In this document: piece after piece, positions 2,829-17,418 of the stretch
Numbering within the stretch: the stretch's first letter is position 1
Layout: every line of letters starts with the position of its first letter
Assembly: GCF_030382115.1 (NCBI RefSeq)
Contig: NZ_JAUDRJ010000003.1
Location: forward strand, 3,255,802 to 3,274,589
Reading direction: 5' to 3'
Length of the DNA: 18,788 nt
DNA from: Nostoc sp. GT001
GTDB lineage: Bacteria; Cyanobacteriota; Cyanobacteriia; Cyanobacteriales; Nostocaceae
Position numbers and translations under genes: made by a program
The notes under the pieces: model-generated
Databases searched by the model: none
Told to the model about the DNA's origin: nothing
What the model saw: the letters and a program-made list of their open reading frames with translations, nothing else

Positions 2829-3017
2829 ATGCCATTGCATCGACTTGTTATGCCATTGCATCGACTTGTTATGCCATTGCATCGACTTGTTATGCCATTG
2901 CATCGGCTTGTTATGCCATTGCATTGGCTTGTTATGCCATTGCATCGACTTGTTATGCCATTGCATCGACTTGTTATGCCATTGCATCGGCTTGTTATGC
3001 CATTGCATCGACTTGCA
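2829..3017 (+). repeat. 21-bp tandem repeat, nine copies
   Basis: Nine head-to-tail copies of a 21-bp unit start ATGCCATTGCATCG and end ACTTGTT. Copies 1-3, 6, 7 and 9 read CGA in the variable triplet, copies 4 and 8 read CGG, and copy 5 reads TGG; copy 9 ends GCA instead of GTT. Because 21 is a multiple of three, several frames stay open through the array on both strands and give heptapeptide repeats. None has a ribosome binding site or a recognisable fold, so no gene is called. It lies between two divergently placed ends: upstream of the ABC importer and downstream of panE. Confidence 0.95.
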
Positions 3018-6956: not shown

Positions 6957-7370
6957 TCATAAAGGTGGAATCTTTGCTAAAATGCCCTTTTTCATTGCTT
7001 CTGGACGCTCTGACCAAGGCAGTAAACCATCTGCTTTAGCGTAGTATTGACTAGCACATTCCAGTACGGCAGAGGCACTACCATCAACAGCTAAATCACC
7101 AAATAAATATGTTAATTTACCTTTGGCACTAAAGGCGACTACACAAGAACGATTACAAGCACTCATACATTCAACTTCCTGAATTGGGAATTGATCTCGT
7201 AAGTCCCAATCTTGTGCCAGCTGCTGAAGTTGGTGTAGAAGCTTTTCACCACCACTTTCACCTAAACGTTTTCCATTTTGCCAAACACTGGCACAGGTTT
7301 TGCAAACAAATAAAGTATGTTCGGCAACTTCCATTGGACTGGTTGGGGAAATATTTACAGTCGTAGTCAT
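6957..7370 (-). CDS. DUF1636 family metal-binding (2Fe-2S ferredoxin-like) protein
   Basis: The protein has 137 residues. The cysteine pattern C23-x2-C26, C68-x3-C72-x3-C76 fits a thioredoxin-like ferredoxin or metal site, and DUF1636 proteins are often found with cobalamin genes. The role is not established; metal handling or electron transfer for corrin synthesis is inference. The frame extends upstream to an ATG at 7418, but that codon lies inside the conserved 3' end of the cobalamin riboswitch. The ATG at 7370 has GAGG 5 bases upstream and is chosen here. The riboswitch 40 bases upstream implies repression by B12. Downstream lies cobK. The stop codon abuts a CTGACTC-type heptamer series. 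Confidence 0.83.
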   Translation of the reverse strand: MTTTVNISPTSPMEVAEHTLFVCKTCASVWQNGKRLGESGGEKLLHQLQQLAQDWDLRDQFPIQEVECMSACNRSCVVAFSAKGKLTYLFGDLAVDGSASAVLECASQYYAKADGLLPWSERPEAMKKGILAKIPPL

Positions 7371-7408
7371 CTGTACCTCGCAGATATGTGAAACTAATAA
7401 ATCGATTT

Positions 7409-7548
7409 CGGCGGGCATCCTGACTCACTCAACTTGAGATTTTCTTTAATCTCAAATTGGTTCACAGTTGCGGGACAGCGCCGGATTTGCACCGAACTTT
7501 CCCCGTTACCTCTGGTAGCTGACTCCCACCAGAACCGAATAACCTTAT
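7409..7548 (-). promoter_or_regulatory. Cobalamin (B12) riboswitch
   Basis: Read on the minus strand, the segment has the conserved blocks of the class in order: GGTTCTGGTGGGAGTCAGCT, GGTAACGGGGAAAG, GGTGCAAATCC, GGCGCTGTCCCGCAACTGTG, and finally GTCAGGATGCCCGCC. Adenosyl- or other cobalamin binding normally lowers expression of the gene behind it. The leader ends about 40 bases before the chosen DUF1636 start, which carries its own GAGG, so control may be by masking that site. A hairpin (TTGAGATT ... AATCTCAA, about 7433-7455) inside the variable region is also visible. It probably controls DUF1636 and perhaps cobK, but not cobA, which lies upstream. Confidence 0.93.
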
Positions 7549-7571
7549 CGATCATACACTCGCAACAGCCA

Positions 7572-10024: not shown

Positions 10025-10098
10025 GGCGAGCGTAGCCAAGTGGTTAAGGCAGTGGTTTGTGGTACCACCATTCGTGGGTTCGATTCCCATCGTTCGCC
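10025..10098 (+). tRNA. tRNA-His (GUG)
   Basis: A full cloverleaf is present. The acceptor GCGAGCG pairs with CGTTCGC (one G-U). The D arm is GCC ... GGC. The anticodon stem GTGGT/ACCAC has loop TTGTGGT, giving anticodon GTG. The T arm is GTGGG/CCCAT with loop TTCGATT. The extra G at 10025 stands opposite C73, the histidine identity element G-1:C73. CCA is not encoded. Confidence 0.96.
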
Positions 10099-10392
10099 CT
10101 ATATAATTTTATATTGATATATATATATTCCTATATAAAGATAGGTTGTGGTTCTGAAGATTCATAACCATTACTTTAGCAATGATTTGTTGTATACGAG
10201 TTCATAGACTTGGAAGGGTTACAAACCTATAATGATTTATTACTTTATCTTATCAAGAAGTTGATGTATATAAGCAAATCTACTTTTTAGCAGCTTCTCT
10301 AGGAGACGGGCTATAGATAGAGAACCTGTTACTATGCTATCGGACTAAGCAGATGCTCTTACTTCTCTGGAGCCTGAGCTATTTATATTAAG

Positions 10393-10961: not shown

Positions 10962-10964
10962 TTT

Positions 10965-11530
10965 ACTCATTACTTATTACTCATTACTTATTACTCATTA
11001 CTTATTACTCATTACTTATTACTCATTACTTATTACTCATTACTTATTACTTATTACTTATTACTCATTACTCATTACTCATTACTCATTACTCATTACT
11101 CATTACTCATTACTCATTACTCATTACTCATTACTCATTACTCATTACTCATTACTCATTACTCATTACTCATTACTCATTACTCATTACTCATTACCCA
11201 TTTTTCATCCACTCATTACTCATTACTCATTACTCATTACTCATTACTCATTACCCATTTTTCATCCACTCATTACTCATTACCCATTTTTCATCCACTC
11301 ATTACTCATTACTCATTACTCATTACTCATTACTCATTACCCATTTTTCATCCACTCATTACTCATTACTCATTACTCATTACTCATTACTCATTACTCA
11401 TTACTCATTACTCATTACCCATTTTTCATCCACTCATTACTCATTACTCATTACTCATTACTCATTACTCATTACTCATTACCCATTTTTCATCCACTCA
11501 TTACTCATTACTCATTACTCATTACTCATT
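10965..11530 (+). repeat. Large heptameric tandem array (ACTCATT with variants)
   Basis: About 566 bp of heptamers. The first approximately 100 bp mixes ACTCATT with ACTTATT; the middle is almost pure ACTCATT. From 11196 on, six copies of a 15-bp block ACCCATTTTTCATCC (starting at 11196, 11253, 11282, 11339, 11417 and 11481) interrupt it at intervals of 57, 29, 57, 78 and 64 bp. The unit has no stop codon on the plus strand, which explains long open frames there; these are not genes. The array occupies most of the spacer between tRNA-His and susA. Confidence 0.97.
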
Positions 11531-11570
11531 ACTCCAGAATCACCGTGCGTTCACGGCGGTGAGGATGTCA

Positions 11571-11623: not shown

Positions 11624-11976
11624 GTGCCGCTCATCAAAATATACGCAAATCAATGATATAGTAAAGATTACATTAAGCAATTGAGGGCGTGATAATTTGT
11701 GCCCCAAATCTTATGATGGACTTATTTACTAACATCTATCAAAAGAAATAAAAATTGTATTCCTTTAGTGAGATCCAAAAATACTGAGTCATAGATACTT
11801 TAAGTAAAGTAGAACATGATTTAAGTGCCTGCTGAAAAGTTGATACTTGTAGGTACACAGGTAAATATAATTTATCTGTGTTGTTTCGTGTTTATATATG
11901 TCTAACAAAAGGTTGAGGCTTATTTGTCTCGCCTAGAAAGTTAACAATGCAAACATCGTCATTTAGTGGAGTTGCT

Positions 11977-14397
11977 ATGTCTGAATTGCTTCAAGCAGTC
12001 TTAGATAGTGAAGAAAGAAGTGATTTACGTTCCTTTATTAGTGAATTACGCCAACAAGAAAAGAAGTACTTGCTACGGAACGACATACTCAATGTATATA
12101 GTGAGTATTGCTCCAAATCCCAGAAACCTGAAGGCTTTTACACTTCCTCGGAGTTAGGCAAACTCATTTACTATACTCAGGAAATTATTCAGGAAGACTC
12201 AAACTTCTGTTTCATCATCCGTTCTAAGATTGCCAGCCAAGAAGTTTATTGGTTGACATCAGACTTAAGCATTGAGCCGATGACGGTGCAGGATTTGTTG
12301 GATCTGCGCGATCGCTTGGTGGACAAATTTCATCCTAACGACGGCGGCTTGCTAGAATTGGATTTCGGCCCCTTTTATGACTACACCCCAGTCATCCGCG
12401 ACCCCAAAAATATTGGTAAAGGGGTGCAATTCCTCAACCGCTATCTATCCAGCAAAATATTTCAAGATTCCAAACAATTGCTGGACAGCTTGTTGAATTT
12501 CTTGCGGCTGCACCACTACAACGGTGTGCAACTGCTAGTCAACGATCGCATTCAATCACAGCAGCAACTTTCTGAGCAAGTTAAGAAAGCTATCAGTTTT
12601 GTTAGTAATCGCCCCGCAGATGAACCCTACGAACAATTCCGCTTCCAATTGCAGTCAATGGGTTTTGAGCCGGGTTGGGGTAACACCGCAGCGCGAGTGC
12701 AGGAAACCCTAAATATTCTCGATGAATTGATTGATTCTGCCGATCCTCAAACCCTAGAAGCATTCATTTCTCGCATCCCGATGATTTTTAGAATCGTCTT
12801 GGTGTCAGCTCACGGTTGGTTTGGGCAAGAGGGAGTTTTAGGGCGTCCCGATACCGGCGGTCAGGTAGTTTACGTCCTTGACCAGGCAAAGAGCTTAGAG
12901 AAGCAGCTACAAGAAGATGTTCTGCTTGCGGGTTTAGAGAAATTGAATGTCGAGCCAAAGGTAATTATTCTCACCCGTTTGATTCCCAATAGTGATGGTA
13001 CTCTTTGTAATCAACGGCTAGAAAAAGTCCACGGGACTGAAAATGCCTGGATTTTGCGAGTGCCTTTACGGGAATTTAACCCTAACATGACTCAAAACTG
13101 GATTTCTCGGTTTGAGTTTTGGCCTTATCTAGAAACTTTCGCCATTGATTCTGAAAGAGAACTACGGGCAGAATTTCACGGCACACCTGACTTAATAGTT
13201 GGAAACTATACTGATGGGAATTTAATAGCATTCTTGCTGGCGCGACGGCTGAAAGTTACTCAATGCAATGTTGCCCATGCTTTGGAAAAATCTAAATATT
13301 TGTTCAGTAACCTCTACTGGCAAGAATTAGAGGAGAAATATCATTTTTCCTTGCAATTCACAGCTGATTTGATTGCCATGAATGCTGCTAATTTTGTGAT
13401 TAGCAGCACCTACCAAGAAATTGTCGGAACACCGGATAGTGTGGGACAGTACGAATCTTATAAGTGCTTCACCATGCCGGAGTTGTATCATGTTACCAAT
13501 GGCATTGAATTATTTAGTCCCAAATTTAATGTTGTACCGCCGGGAGTAAACGAAAATAATTACTTCCCCTACACTCGAAATAAAGATCGGGTAGAGAGCG
13601 ATCGCCAACGCCTTGCAGAAACCCTCTTTACTCTGGAAGATCCCACACAAATCTTTGGTAAACTCGACGATCCTAACAAGCGTCCTCTCTTCTCAATGGC
13701 GCGTCTCGACCACATCAAAAACCTCACAGGTTTAGCTGAATGTTATGGTCAAAGTAAAGAATTACAAGAGCATTGCAACTTAATTTTGGTAGCCGGTAAA
13801 TTACGCGTCGAAGAATCAGGCGACAACGAAGAACGCGACGAAATTATCAAACTCTACCAAATAATTGACCAGTACAATCTCCACGGAAAGATTCGTTGGC
13901 TGGGTGTGCGCCTCTCCAAAACTGATTCCGGTGAAATTTATCGAGTCATTGCCGATCATCAGGGAATTTTTGTACAACCAGCTTTATTTGAAGCTTTTGG
14001 CTTGACAATTTTAGAAGCAATGGTTTCAGGATTACCGACTTTCGCCACACAGTTTGGTGGGCCATTAGAGATTATTCAAGATAAGGTGAATGGATTTTTA
14101 ATTAACCCAACAAATTTAGAGGAGACAGCCAGCAAAATTGTGGATTTCATCACAAAATGCGAACAAAATCCTAACTATTGGAGTGAAATTTCCCAGCGAG
14201 GAATTGACCGAGTTTACAGCACCTATACTTGGAAAATTCACACTAGCAAGCTGTTATCATTAGCACGGATTTATGGCTTCTGGAACTTTACCTCAAAGGA
14301 AAATCGGGAAGATTTATTGCGCTATATTGAGGCTTTGTTCTATTTAATTTACAAGCCAAGAGCGCAACAGCTATTAGAGCAGCATCAGTACCGATAA
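11977..14397 (+). CDS. susA: Sucrose synthase
   Basis: SusA reversibly cleaves sucrose with UDP or ADP to nucleotide-glucose and fructose; in filamentous cyanobacteria it acts mainly in sucrose breakdown and links sucrose to glycogen and nitrogen-fixing metabolism. The protein is 806 residues, the usual length. The N-terminal regulatory part contains FISELRQQEKKYLLRNDIL. The GT-B domain shows GQEGVLGRPDTGGQVVYVLD (around 280) and, near 670, EAFGLTILEAMVSGLP with the E-x7-E catalytic pattern. The frame opens at ATG 11947, but the ATG at 11977 has GGAG 5 bases upstream and begins MSELLQ like known cyanobacterial SusA. It is transcribed alone; a hairpin follows 67 bases after the stop. Confidence 0.96.
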   Translation: MSELLQAVLDSEERSDLRSFISELRQQEKKYLLRNDILNVYSEYCSKSQKPEGFYTSSELGKLIYYTQEIIQEDSNFCFIIRSKIASQEVYWLTSDLSIEPMTVQDLLDLRDRLVDKFHPNDGGLLELDFGPFYDYTPVIRDPKNIGKGVQFLNRYLSSKIFQDSKQLLDSLLNFLRLHHYNGVQLLVNDRIQSQQQLSEQVKKAISFVSNRPADEPYEQFRFQLQSMGFEPGWGNTAARVQETLNILDELIDSADPQTLEAFISRIPMIFRIVLVSAHGWFGQEGVLGRPDTGGQVVYVLDQAKSLEKQLQEDVLLAGLEKLNVEPKVIILTRLIPNSDGTLCNQRLEKVHGTENAWILRVPLREFNPNMTQNWISRFEFWPYLETFAIDSERELRAEFHGTPDLIVGNYTDGNLIAFLLARRLKVTQCNVAHALEKSKYLFSNLYWQELEEKYHFSLQFTADLIAMNAANFVISSTYQEIVGTPDSVGQYESYKCFTMPELYHVTNGIELFSPKFNVVPPGVNENNYFPYTRNKDRVESDRQRLAETLFTLEDPTQIFGKLDDPNKRPLFSMARLDHIKNLTGLAECYGQSKELQEHCNLILVAGKLRVEESGDNEERDEIIKLYQIIDQYNLHGKIRWLGVRLSKTDSGEIYRVIADHQGIFVQPALFEAFGLTILEAMVSGLPTFATQFGGPLEIIQDKVNGFLINPTNLEETASKIVDFITKCEQNPNYWSEISQRGIDRVYSTYTWKIHTSKLLSLARIYGFWNFTSKENREDLLRYIEALFYLIYKPRAQQLLEQHQYR

Positions 14398-14463
14398 TAA
14401 GTTAGAAGGGATAAGCTGTTCCATATTTAACTCAATACGCTTGGTTTAAGAATTTTTGATATG

Positions 14464-14490
14464 TAGAGACGTTGCAATACAACGTCTCTA
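14464..14490. repeat. 11-bp perfect hairpin downstream of susA
   Basis: TAGAGACGTTG, loop CAATA and CAACGTCTCTA form a perfect stem 67-93 bases after the susA stop. No T-run follows on the plus strand. The GAGACG(T/C) stem resembles the hairpin at 17710-17729 and is a common intergenic palindrome type in this group; it may still end or protect the susA transcript. Confidence 0.75.
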
Positions 14491-14577
14491 AAAAGGATTG
14501 CGGGCTTAACTAAACCGTATAGTAAGGATATTTAAATTACTGTGGACAAAAATCTTTATTTATATATTAATCGAATA

Positions 14578-14724
14578 ATATCATGTCCGCATAATTAGTT
14601 ATGATTCCCAGAGTCATTGCACCCCACCCCCAGCCCCTCCCCGCTCTTCGGGAGGGGAGACAAAGCGCAGCTTTGGCGGGGTGGGGTTCTTGGGGTTTAG
14701 TAAGTAATCAAGCGGACATGATAT
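14578..14724. mobile_element. 147-bp MITE-like element C with nested hairpins
   Basis: The ends ATATCATGTCCGC (14578-14590) and GCGGACATGATAT (14712-14724) are perfect 13-bp inverted repeats, extending imperfectly to 22 bp. Inside, ACCCCACCCC (14621-14630) pairs with GGGGTGGGGT (14678-14687). This encloses two hairpins: CCCCTCCC/GGGAGGGG (14634-14657) and CAAAGC/GCTTTG (14661-14675). The result is a branched, RNA-like fold. There is no coding capacity, so any movement would need a transposase from elsewhere. A solo end lies at 2758-2771. Confidence 0.75.
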
Positions 14725-14948
14725 AAGAAGAATTTACCTTTTGATTAGTGTTCCAGATCCGAAAGCAATGTCTACGATGGGCTACGCCTACGGAGAAGAT
14801 ATTGTCAACAAGCAAGATTTCATGCGGATATATGAGAAATTTTTGATAAAATGTGCTGATCCTAGCTAGATGAGCTAAATCACAATTACTATTAAGGTCT
14901 ATTTGTGAAATAAGCAGTCCAAAAGCTTAAAAATCAGGAAACCATTCC

Positions 14949-16043
14949 ATGAGCGATCTGACCAGTGACAGCCAACTATCAAGGATTGTTTTGAAAGGCT
15001 TTAAGTCTATTGCTGAATGTGACCTTAAGCTTTTGAAACTAAACGTACTTATTGGATGTAATGGTGCAGGTAAATCTAACTTCATAGGCTTCTTTCGCAT
15101 GGTTCAGCAGATGCTTGAGAGGAATCTGCAAGTTTTGGTAAGCCGCCAGGGTGGCCCCGATGCGATCTTGCATTTTGGCCGTAAAACAACTGAGCAACTA
15201 GAGATTGAGCTTTATTTTGGAAACAACGGGTACTTCGCTACTCTTGAACCAACTCAAGACAACCGTCTAATGTTTTCCAAAGAATCTTTTTGGTGGAATA
15301 TGAGCGGTGAGCGTGAAATCGGTAGTGGTCATTTTGAGAGTAAGGCTTTACGAGGCAGTGGCACAAGAATTGACAAGTACATATTACCCACCATGCGGCA
15401 GTGGCGGGTTTATCATTTCCATGATACAAGCGACAGCGCTTATGTGAAGCAACCACACAAGATTAATGATAATGTTTACTTGCGTTCTGATGCGCGTAAT
15501 CTTGCAGCTTTCCTATATTTGTTAAGTGAAAATTATTCGGAATCTTATCGGCGAATTGTCAAAACAATTCGACTTGTTGCTCCTTTCTTTGGTGATTTTT
15601 ATCTACGTCATTCTCCACAAAACAATGAGGTGATCGAGTTGGAATGGGTCGAGCAAGGTCAAGATATTCCGTTTAAAGCTCATCTTCTTTCGGATGGAAC
15701 ACTTCGTTTTATATGCCTGGCCACTGTCTTTTTGCAACCTACTTCCCTTCAGCCCGAAACGATTTTGGTTGATGAACCTGAGCTAGGTCTTCACCCGTAT
15801 GCAATTACTGTTCTTGCATCGTTAATGCGTTCCGCTGCAAAAGAAAAACAAGTTATTGTTTCAACTCAGTCGGTTGAACTGCTCAATGAATTTAGGGCGA
15901 AAGATGTAATTGTTGTAGATCGCGATCGTGGTAAATCATCCCTCCGAAGATTGAATGAGGATGATTTACACGAGTGGCTTGAAGACTACAGCTTAGGAGA
16001 ACTGTGGAAGAAGAACATCCTTGGCGGGAGACCTTCACGATGA
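14949..16043 (+). CDS. AAA-family (AAA_21/RecF-OLD-like) ATPase of a two-gene putative defence module
   Basis: This 364-residue SMC/OLD-type ATPase starts with the typical ISSR-like strand LSRIVLKGFKSIAECDL. It has Walker A GCNGAGKS (36-43), a signature-like LSDGTLR (247-253), Walker B ILVDEPE (272-278, D275/E276), LGLHP after it, and the sensor-like STQS (305-308). There is no fused nuclease domain: after the ATPase fold it ends with DDLHEWLEDYSLGELW, a motif-like tail also seen in related two-gene systems. The start has a weak AGGAAA. The next gene begins within its stop (ATGA), so the two products are made together. Related ATPases pair with a TOPRIM-like protein in AbiL/RloAB and, fused, in OLD and Gabija GajA. 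A role in phage defence is inference. Confidence 0.85.
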   Translation: MSDLTSDSQLSRIVLKGFKSIAECDLKLLKLNVLIGCNGAGKSNFIGFFRMVQQMLERNLQVLVSRQGGPDAILHFGRKTTEQLEIELYFGNNGYFATLEPTQDNRLMFSKESFWWNMSGEREIGSGHFESKALRGSGTRIDKYILPTMRQWRVYHFHDTSDSAYVKQPHKINDNVYLRSDARNLAAFLYLLSENYSESYRRIVKTIRLVAPFFGDFYLRHSPQNNEVIELEWVEQGQDIPFKAHLLSDGTLRFICLATVFLQPTSLQPETILVDEPELGLHPYAITVLASLMRSAAKEKQVIVSTQSVELLNEFRAKDVIVVDRDRGKSSLRRLNEDDLHEWLEDYSLGELWKKNILGGRPSR

Positions 16044-16696
16044 TCCGAATACACGTTTTTGTAGAAGGACAGACGGAAGAAACTTTTGTAAAAGAAGTAC
16101 TCTGCGAACATCTTCAGCGAAAAGAGATATATCTCAACCCCATTCTTGTGCGAACTAGCTCAACAAATAAGGGTGGTGTAGTGAGCTATGCAAAGATCAA
16201 GCCGCAATTAAATCGTAAATGCCTTGAGGATGTTTCGGCGTTCGTCACTACGATGTTTGATTTATATCGATTGCCAAATGATTTTCCAGGAAGCAGTTCT
16301 CTGCCTAGTACGAATGACCCATTTCAGAAAGCTGAATATCTTGAGCAGCAAATGAGCGCAGATATTAAACACCAAAATTTTCTCCCCAATTTACTGGTTC
16401 ATGAGTTTGAGGGACTCCTGTACAGCAATCCACAAGCTTTTCTCGCATGGTTTGACCAAAGTATAGTAGATAGTCTACAGGCAGAGCGTGACTTATTCCT
16501 TTCACCTGAACATATTAATGAAGGCCCGACAACAGCCCCATCTAAACGAATTATTAGATGTTGCCTTGGATATGAAAAGCCATTACATGGCTCCTTGATT
16601 GCAATGGATATTGGGTTGGATACAATACGTCAGCAATGCCAGCATTTCAATCAATGGTTAATGCGTCTTGAAAAGATCAACGGTAGTAATGGCTAA
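16040..16696 (+). CDS. DUF4276 (TOPRIM-like) protein of the two-gene module
   Basis: The protein has 218 residues. It opens with IHVFVEGQTEETF (4-16), where E9 matches the lone glutamate of the TOPRIM fold. MFDLYRLP (72-79, D74) sits where the acidic D-x-D motif is expected. NLLVHEFEGLLYSNP (117-131) and EGPTTAPSKRI (161-171) are hallmarks of DUF4276. It may be a nuclease or nucleotide-processing partner of the ATPase; activity is not known. An ATG at 16004 in the same frame would overlap the ATPase gene by 40 bases. The ATG at 16040 overlaps its stop as ATGA and has GGGAG 9 bases upstream, so it is chosen. No other gene follows in the same direction. Confidence 0.85.
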   Translation: MIRIHVFVEGQTEETFVKEVLCEHLQRKEIYLNPILVRTSSTNKGGVVSYAKIKPQLNRKCLEDVSAFVTTMFDLYRLPNDFPGSSSLPSTNDPFQKAEYLEQQMSADIKHQNFLPNLLVHEFEGLLYSNPQAFLAWFDQSIVDSLQAERDLFLSPEHINEGPTTAPSKRIIRCCLGYEKPLHGSLIAMDIGLDTIRQQCQHFNQWLMRLEKINGSNG

Positions 16697-16847
16697 AGAA
16701 AATATATTGCCCTCAAAAGACAGTAAAAATGTTATTTGTGTTCTCCATATTTTAGAAAGTTTTCAGCATTATTACTAATTTACAAAAGTGATTTTTTCTG
16801 AGATTTCCATAAATGAATCAGGAATTATGAATAATACGAAGTTTCAT

Positions 16848-16868
16848 AACTCCTAACTTCTAACTAAA
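16848..16868 (+). repeat. Three degenerate heptamers at the end of the peptidoglycan-binding gene
   Basis: TAACTCC, TAACTTC and TAACTAA stand in tandem. The stop codon (TAG on the minus strand, 16864-16866) of the neighbouring gene lies inside the last unit. The rest of 16697-16847 shows nothing recognisable. Confidence 0.5.
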
Positions 16869-17418
16869 TTGTTAGCGCACTCCAAGTTCGTTGACCAACT
16901 ACTCCATCTACACCTAAATTTTGCTGATTTTGAAAGGCTTTGACAGCAGTCTCTGTTAGTGCGCCAAAAATCCCATCTACTCTCACAGCATAACCGTTAG
17001 TCACTAATAACTGTTGTAAGGCTCTGACAGCAATACCAGAACTACCAAAATAAAGAGTCGGTAGAGGTTGGCTACTAAACTTCTGGAACCTTCCTGTAGC
17101 CTTTGTACGGACTTTACCTCCAGACTGAAAAGACTTCTTAGGCTTACCTAAGTTAGAAGAAATTAGTCCCAGATTCTTTTTGCTAATTTTCTGAAGTATG
17201 TGTTCTTTTTCTGGTTTCAGCGCTGAGAGAGAAGCCTGAGAAATCTCATCTGTCTGCATAAATTCAGGTGGCGTAACTTTAGCCGCTATCTCTAACTGAC
17301 TCTGTTTTGACTGGTTTACGTCATTTTCCATTTGCAATAATTGCTGCTGTGGCAAATTGACCCCAGATGCTTGTCTTATTGTTAATACGCCCGTCATCAT
17401 CAGGCCAATTTCATTCAT
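16864..17418 (-). CDS. Peptidoglycan-binding domain protein
   Basis: This 184-residue protein carries one C-terminal peptidoglycan-binding domain (PG_binding_1), residues about 122-182: LYFGSSGIAVRALQQLL, then GYAVRVDGIFGALTETAVKAFQ, then LGVDGVVGQRTWSAL. The domain would bind the cell wall, but no catalytic domain is attached. The first 120 residues are rich in Q, S and K, probably unstructured, and show no signal peptide, so how it would reach the wall is unclear. No Shine-Dalgarno sequence precedes the ATG at 17418; ATGs at residues 7 and 8 are alternatives. The stop codon lies in a heptamer repeat. Such proteins are common and poorly characterised in cyanobacteria. Confidence 0.8.
   Translation of the reverse strand: MNEIGLMMTGVLTIRQASGVNLPQQQLLQMENDVNQSKQSQLEIAAKVTPPEFMQTDEISQASLSALKPEKEHILQKISKKNLGLISSNLGKPKKSFQSGGKVRTKATGRFQKFSSQPLPTLYFGSSGIAVRALQQLLVTNGYAVRVDGIFGALTETAVKAFQNQQNLGVDGVVGQRTWSALTI

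Follow-up and report, generated by a model that had tools for sequence, protein, structure and literature searches.

A split OLD-like ABC ATPase and DUF4276 gene pair in Nostoc sp. GT001 is a probable defence module of the catalogued candidate family HEC-01

An 18,788-nucleotide stretch of the 7.9-Mb Nostoc sp. GT001 genome (contig NZ_JAUDRJ010000003.1, positions 3,255,802 to 3,274,589; G000:C3:3255802-3274589 in our numbering of genomes and contigs), hereafter the window, carries two overlapping genes that encode an ABC-type ATPase and a protein of the DUF4276 family. Judged by its profile matches, the pair is a clear and ordinary member of a catalogued candidate defence family, HEC-01 (Hma-embedded candidate 1, PADLOC-DB), and is not new in kind. 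It was concluded that the two genes probably form a split OLD-like ATPase-TOPRIM module with a defence function, and that they most likely act as an infection-triggered anti-virus module. With a probability of roughly 0.6, the ABC ATPase would restrain the TOPRIM nuclease until infection triggers its release or activation, in the manner of PARIS and AbiL. A defence role had been proposed in a preliminary description of this DNA, and it is supported by the HEC-01 match and by defence operons found around the pair at four homologous loci.

Both HEC-01 models were matched at near full length by adjacent genes, adjacency being judged from their 4-base overlap. The ATPase scored 521.6 bits (E 2.5e-157) against HEC-01A (PDLC04175) over residues 8-362 of 364, and the second protein scored 283.3 bits (E 3.7e-85) against HEC-01B (PDLC04188) over residues 1-213 of 218. 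The runner-up PADLOC profiles for the ATPase were MAD3, PDC-M07A, AriA and AbiLi with 96, 95, 85 and 81.6 bits, respectively. The founding preprint of the HECs is given in a reference entry as 10.1101/2024.01.29.577857. Several HECs, including HEC-06, were reported to be active in a passage of PMC12988326 that does not name HEC-01.

The coordinates and frames of both genes were verified. The ATPase open reading frame (ORF; 14949-16043, + strand) encodes 364 amino acids and the DUF4276 ORF (16040-16696, + strand) encodes 218. The stop of the first gene and the start of the second share the four bases ATGA (16040-16043, + strand), as had been described before. The last four bases through the ATPase stop were ATGA in 56 and GTGA in five (61 of 76 homologous loci), and the overlap presumably reflects translational coupling. 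In Pfam, the ATPase matched PF13304 (AAA_21) with 93 bits against a cut-off of 27, over the same residues as the AriA match, and its partner matched PF14103 (DUF4276) with 196 bits against a cut-off of 30.2. The DUF4276 gene is the single one of its family within the window; its top relative, labelled Nostoc sp., was 95% identical. Homologues of the DUF4276 protein numbered 3,548 at E 1e-5 or better and those of the ATPase at least 8,000. Since thousands of homologues exist for both proteins and the gene order is kept across phyla, the pair is not a chance feature. A scan for promoters and terminators gave no excess over shuffles (4 vs 5.7; 1 vs 1.9).

The Walker A, Walker B with its glutamate and ABC signature motifs are all complete in the ATPase. 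Walker A spans G36-S43 (15054-15077, + strand), the ABC signature S248-R253 (15690-15707, +) and Walker B with the catalytic glutamate I272-E276 (15762-15776, +). The residues G36, N38, G41 and K42, S248, D249, G250 and R253, and D275 and E276 were invariant in 42 of 42 homologues. So was Gln307 (15867-15869, +), which stands at what we take to be the ABC switch position; three cyanobacterial OLD-type proteins have His at a similar place. The C-terminal tail is conserved as well, with W353, G359 and G360 invariant. In the structural model, residues 6-358 align with heads of the SMC/Rad50 type, and the model also aligns with residues 1-370 of the T. scotoductus OLD protein, which are its ATPase part. 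The model shows no second domain, and the chain stops at 364 amino acids without a TOPRIM region. Thus, an ATPase with complete Walker motifs and no nuclease domain had been correctly recognized, and the name 'AAA ATPase' agrees with the AAA_21 match; by the model, the fold is ABC-type (OLD/SMC-head-like) and not AAA+, 'AAA' being merely the Pfam label. ABC ATPases are reportedly the subject of a study by Krishnan et al. (2020).

An AlphaFold2 model of the DUF4276 protein (predicted local distance difference test score, pLDDT, of 94) has a TOPRIM-like fold. The closest folds were C-terminal regions of OLD proteins, followed by PARIS, retron Eco8, GajA and TsOLD chains. Alignment by hhalign to 11 cyanobacterial OLD TOPRIM regions gave an E-value of 1.8e-5 and a probability of 78, whereas the probabilities against RloB (1.5) and DUF4435 (5) were not informative. 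A search of the sequence against solved structures yielded nothing meaningful, the best E-values being 0.18 with the single sequence and 0.96 with the profile.

Six residues, E9, E13, D74, E122, E124 and K180, were invariant in the DUF4276 alignment (60 of 60 homologues). The first two delimit the TOPRIM glutamate motif E9-G-Q-T-E13 (16064-16078, + strand), and their spacing equals that of E400 and E404 of the B. pseudomallei OLD protein, as given in a section of PMC6755086. The motif D74-L-Y76 (16259-16267, +) keeps the first Asp of DxD. The complete DxD of the OLD type is absent, position 76 being Tyr in 50 and Phe in 10 of the 60 homologues. The candidate second-metal residues lie in E122-F-E124 (16403-16411, +); E122/E124 would correspond to T506/E508, and K169/K180 to K562, of OLD. 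The protein is therefore described here as a predicted metal-dependent, two-metal TOPRIM nuclease, and the earlier suggestion of a TOPRIM-like protein with E9 and D74 in place held in both respects. A literature search on the term 'DUF4276' returned no mention, PF14103 not being searched as a term by itself.

Modules of this kind have been described. OLD-ABC and TOPRIM dyads, including some that serve as BREX back-up effectors, are mentioned in part of PMC12839542, which credits TOPRIM-linked OLD-ABC operons to Aravind and colleagues, and PARIS and AbiL stand among the two-gene ATPase/TOPRIM pairs in passages of PMC10440598 and PMC12409363. The pair shares with AbiL/RloAB (AbiLi and AbiLii) the layout of an ATPase gene and a gene for a TOPRIM-type effector. 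It differs in sequence: the AbiLi model is matched by the ATPase with 81.6 bits, compared with 521.6 bits for HEC-01A, and the DUF4276 protein has no match to RloB in Pfam or to AbiLii in PADLOC. Of the proposed split OLD/AbiL-like module, the split OLD-like part holds; by sequence, the pair is not a member of AbiL/RloAB. A separate AbiL pair is encoded in the same genome by overlapping ORFs (G000:C3:2242939-2243454, L184, at about C3:2.243 Mb; AbiLi 341 bits, AbiLii 107 bits). PARIS (AriA and AriB) differs by its effector, which belongs to DUF4435 and not to DUF4276; the protein in the window has no DUF4435 match, and neither was an AriB-type DUF4435 effector matched anywhere in the genome. 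Behind the HEC-01 models, the ATPase was matched best by the profiles of MAD3 from MADS and of PDC-M07A (about 95 bits). Both are far under HEC-01A, and MAD3 is below its NCBIfam cut-off (99.6 vs 420 bits).

OLD nucleases and GajA contain the same ABC ATPase and TOPRIM nuclease parts, and the best match in fold was to the C-terminal region of OLD, but the pair consists of two chains instead of one and the second Asp of DxD is replaced by Tyr or Phe. In the main rival explanation, a stable ATPase-nuclease complex of the split OLD or Gabija type is restrained by nucleotide and cuts invading DNA directly, with no toxic effector being released. Such direct cutting is possible but was considered unlikely. 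Z differences of about 1 cannot separate the substrates, and the two-gene layout fits PARIS and AbiL. Further, Gabija combines a single-chain GajA with an adjoining GajB helicase, whereas the genes flanking the pair in the window are not helicases: the interval 16697-16863 contains no ORF of at least 60 amino acids, and it is followed by the gene for the peptidoglycan-binding protein.

The association of the two genes was investigated at loci of named genomes, taken as the best 80 of 479 relatives from a search with the DUF4276 alignment. A same-strand ATPase gene was located upstream of the DUF4276 gene in 76 of the 76 loci with room for it, the other four (L050, L083, L087 and L090) being uninformative with a start no more than 131 bases from a contig end. 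The ATPase was also present at all 30 best-scoring loci of the same and related genomes, at L022 just as a 186-nt open piece. Additionally, 20 further loci were hand-picked among many weaker matches (PF14103 at 58-116 bits in 18, which are remote, and 171-185 bits in two), and the ATPase was found on the same strand within about 0.2 kb in 19 of them; at L131 the two were 1.2 kb apart. Imperfect loci had an ATPase cut by the contig end (L052, L099) or in two pieces (L105), or a broken nuclease frame (L079, L018). One homologous locus has an unusually long ATPase frame of 1608 nt (L096:8401-10008).

Evolutionary distances of the ATPase and the nuclease were compared by a mirror-tree approach, in which 69 of 77 possible pairs passed the length filter. 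The correlation was 0.87 over the 69 pairs, uncorrected for species relatedness, and the best of 1000 permutations reached 0.23. The ratio of nonsynonymous to synonymous substitution rates (dN/dS) was 0.08-0.30 in 25 comparisons (15 of the ATPase, 10 of the nuclease; the G003 nuclease was excluded), which indicated purifying selection. It was concluded that the two genes very probably work together.

In common with HEC-01, some homologues are embedded in other defence operons. Four of 20 loci were read gene by gene. Co-directional runs consisted of an SNF2 helicase, the pair, a type III methyltransferase and a restriction enzyme in Oceanisphaera (L051), of an SNF2 helicase, the pair and a SIR2 protein in Limnohabitans (L055), and of an SNF2 helicase, the pair, a YhcG nuclease and a methyltransferase in gammaproteobacterium HdN1 (L070), while in Levilinea (L077) a BREX-like run of PglX, the pair and PglZ was present. 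Ten proteins, chosen as long and co-directional, were named singly at these loci; nine matched PADLOC at 1e-40 and the tenth has a PglZ domain by Pfam alone (35.3 bits). The window pair differs from these homologues in lying outside a defence operon, between the genes for sucrose synthase and a peptidoglycan-binding-domain protein; nothing else distinguishing was found.

The neighbourhood of the pair was compared with controls at 20 loci. The 109 neighbouring proteins (about 5 kb on each side) matched 99 PADLOC families at E 1e-25, whereas 16 were matched by 122 control proteins, which came from a single 10-kb region on each of these contigs at a distance of 85 kb or more, these figures being redundant families and not gene counts. 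The most members per PADLOC family were three among the neighbours and one among the controls. The 16 control families comprised 13 GajB models, PifA, mad3 and RTasHel. Non-overlapping ORFs of 170-1200 amino acids were used, one ORF above 1200 amino acids was dropped from each set, and two of the 22 genomes (G198 and G218) were left out. The commonest Pfam domains of the neighbours were N6_N4_Mtase (four) and SSB, SNF2, Helicase_C, ResIII and DEAD (three each); single metabolic or ordinary genes also occurred.

We proposed that the ABC ATPase would act as the sensor or regulator and the DUF4276 protein as the metal-dependent TOPRIM nuclease effector. Coupled translation would let the nuclease meet its ATPase at once, and an oligomer of the ATPase would keep it inactive. 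An infection cue, either a phage protein or the breakdown of an associated restriction or BREX system, would alter the state of the ATPase and unleash the nuclease. The freed enzyme might then cut a nucleic acid of the host, more likely RNA (tRNA or another kind) than DNA, and the infection would be aborted. Abortive cutting of this kind was modelled on AriA/AriB in PARIS, where AriB is sequestered by an AriA hexamer according to a passage of PMC12409363, and on what is thought for AbiLi/AbiLii. The neutralisation of TOPRIM_OLD toxins by ATPases (PMC10440598) is a further precedent. A quite doubtful extension would make HEC-01 a mechanistically separate split-OLD class, in which a Gln-switch ATPase with a conserved tail and a TOPRIM nuclease with DxY and ExE motifs guard the surrounding restriction, DISARM-like or BREX system and fire when it is disabled.

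Homologues were also found on mobile DNA. Among plasmids, 12 records contained a DUF4276 homologue, and an annotated AAA ATPase lay under the match in nine. On a prophage-like contig of IMG/VR (L111), the pair is flanked by a CI-like repressor on one side and by genes for endolysin, spanin, terminase and portal proteins on the other, and eight of 10 proteins matched PHROGs. The IMG/VR relatives numbered two among 43 stretches, one being a fragment, and no DUF4276 match was found among INPHARED phages. Such carriage agrees with a defence module. Together with the overlap of the two genes, it would also suit a toxin-antitoxin or addiction pair that stands alone and is maintained by mobile elements, defence being a by-product. 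In the usual type II layout the antitoxin is small, and the pair is found inside BREX-like and restriction operons at four loci, both of which speak against this explanation. Although TOPRIM_OLD toxins were neutralised by ATPases in tests described in part of PMC10440598, we judged an addiction pair very improbable.

The site occupied in the window was compared among 53 genomes of the genus. As stated in the preliminary description, the pair is flanked by housekeeping genes, namely sucrose synthase (11947-14397) and the peptidoglycan-binding-domain gene (16864-17418, - strand). The pair is beside sucrose synthase in six of the genomes (G000, G003, G009, G014, G023 and G026; the G009 contig stops ahead of the right flank) and is left as a broken remnant in one (G040). 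It is missing in at least 42, in which the flanking genes lie on one contig 17-314 bp apart; four more (G027, G033, G045 and G048) were undecidable, a flank being on another contig or not among the matches listed. The segment missing from the empty site, which includes the pair and its flanks, corresponds to 14397-16860, with exact borders that vary by genome. This presence and absence is direct evidence of insertion or of repeated loss. Some of the 42 genomes with an empty site have HEC-01-like pairs elsewhere (G038, G044). The family is patchy more widely, DUF4276 being detected in 119 of 198 relatives at E 1e-3 (105 above the cut-off) and not found in 79. Such a distribution, along with plasmid carriage and the defence neighbours at some loci, disfavours a non-defence role in DNA or RNA maintenance. 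That role, which has been suggested for Cran1, an archaeal ATPase of the OLD class, is the least probable of the readings, even though Cran1 is presented in a passage of PMC12796447 as an OLD ATPase able to serve the cell cycle.

Two copies at the site are decayed. In G003 (L141) the nuclease frame is cut at residue 111 while the ATPase frame is open, which fits the toxin-antitoxin and the defence views alike. In G040 (L146) the ATPase is interrupted and part of the pair is deleted. The empty site of G041 (L155) contains a palindromic repeat that resembles a fusion of the left portion of one repeat with the right portion of a second, and such repeats stand on both sides of the pair in G014 (L142). 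They could be traces of recombination by which the cassette was lost or gained.

An element resembling a miniature inverted-repeat transposable element (MITE) is located at 14578-14724, outside the module. Its inverted ends (14578-14601 and 14701-14724) are 24 nt long and 88% complementary. At least 44 matches of this family were recorded in the genome, with 40 of 179 candidates scored and a few matches being second pieces of one copy, and many more occur across the genus. The element had been regarded as a sign of acquisition. It is real, but this use of it was rejected: other copies of the pair at the site lack the element, and in G003 and G026 the junctions are near-exact. In each of the six other genomes that have the pair or its remnant here, the aligned flanks of the element's place are separated by at most 37 bases. 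As this is too short for the element, it must have arrived as a separate insertion. A lone terminal-repeat match was seen at window position 2760, near a 21-bp tandem repeat of 8.9 copies (2829-3015), and another lone match elsewhere in the G009 stretch.

Other features of the window include an array of about 81 copies of a 7-bp repeat (10963-11534), a cobalamin riboswitch (7393-7554, - strand) that adjoins a minus-strand ORF (6957-7418), and a tRNA-His gene (10026-10099, + strand).

The TOPRIM-like fold makes the DUF4276 family, with its thousands of homologues, a family of predicted nucleases with named, testable residues. Pfam lists the second component of HEC-01 simply as a domain of unknown function, and the pair offers a clean, testable two-gene member. 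A guard role, if true, would explain the insertion of HEC-01 inside restriction and BREX operons. In Nostoc, a single chromosomal site that is occupied, decayed or empty in different genomes of one genus shows how a likely defence cassette is gained or lost.
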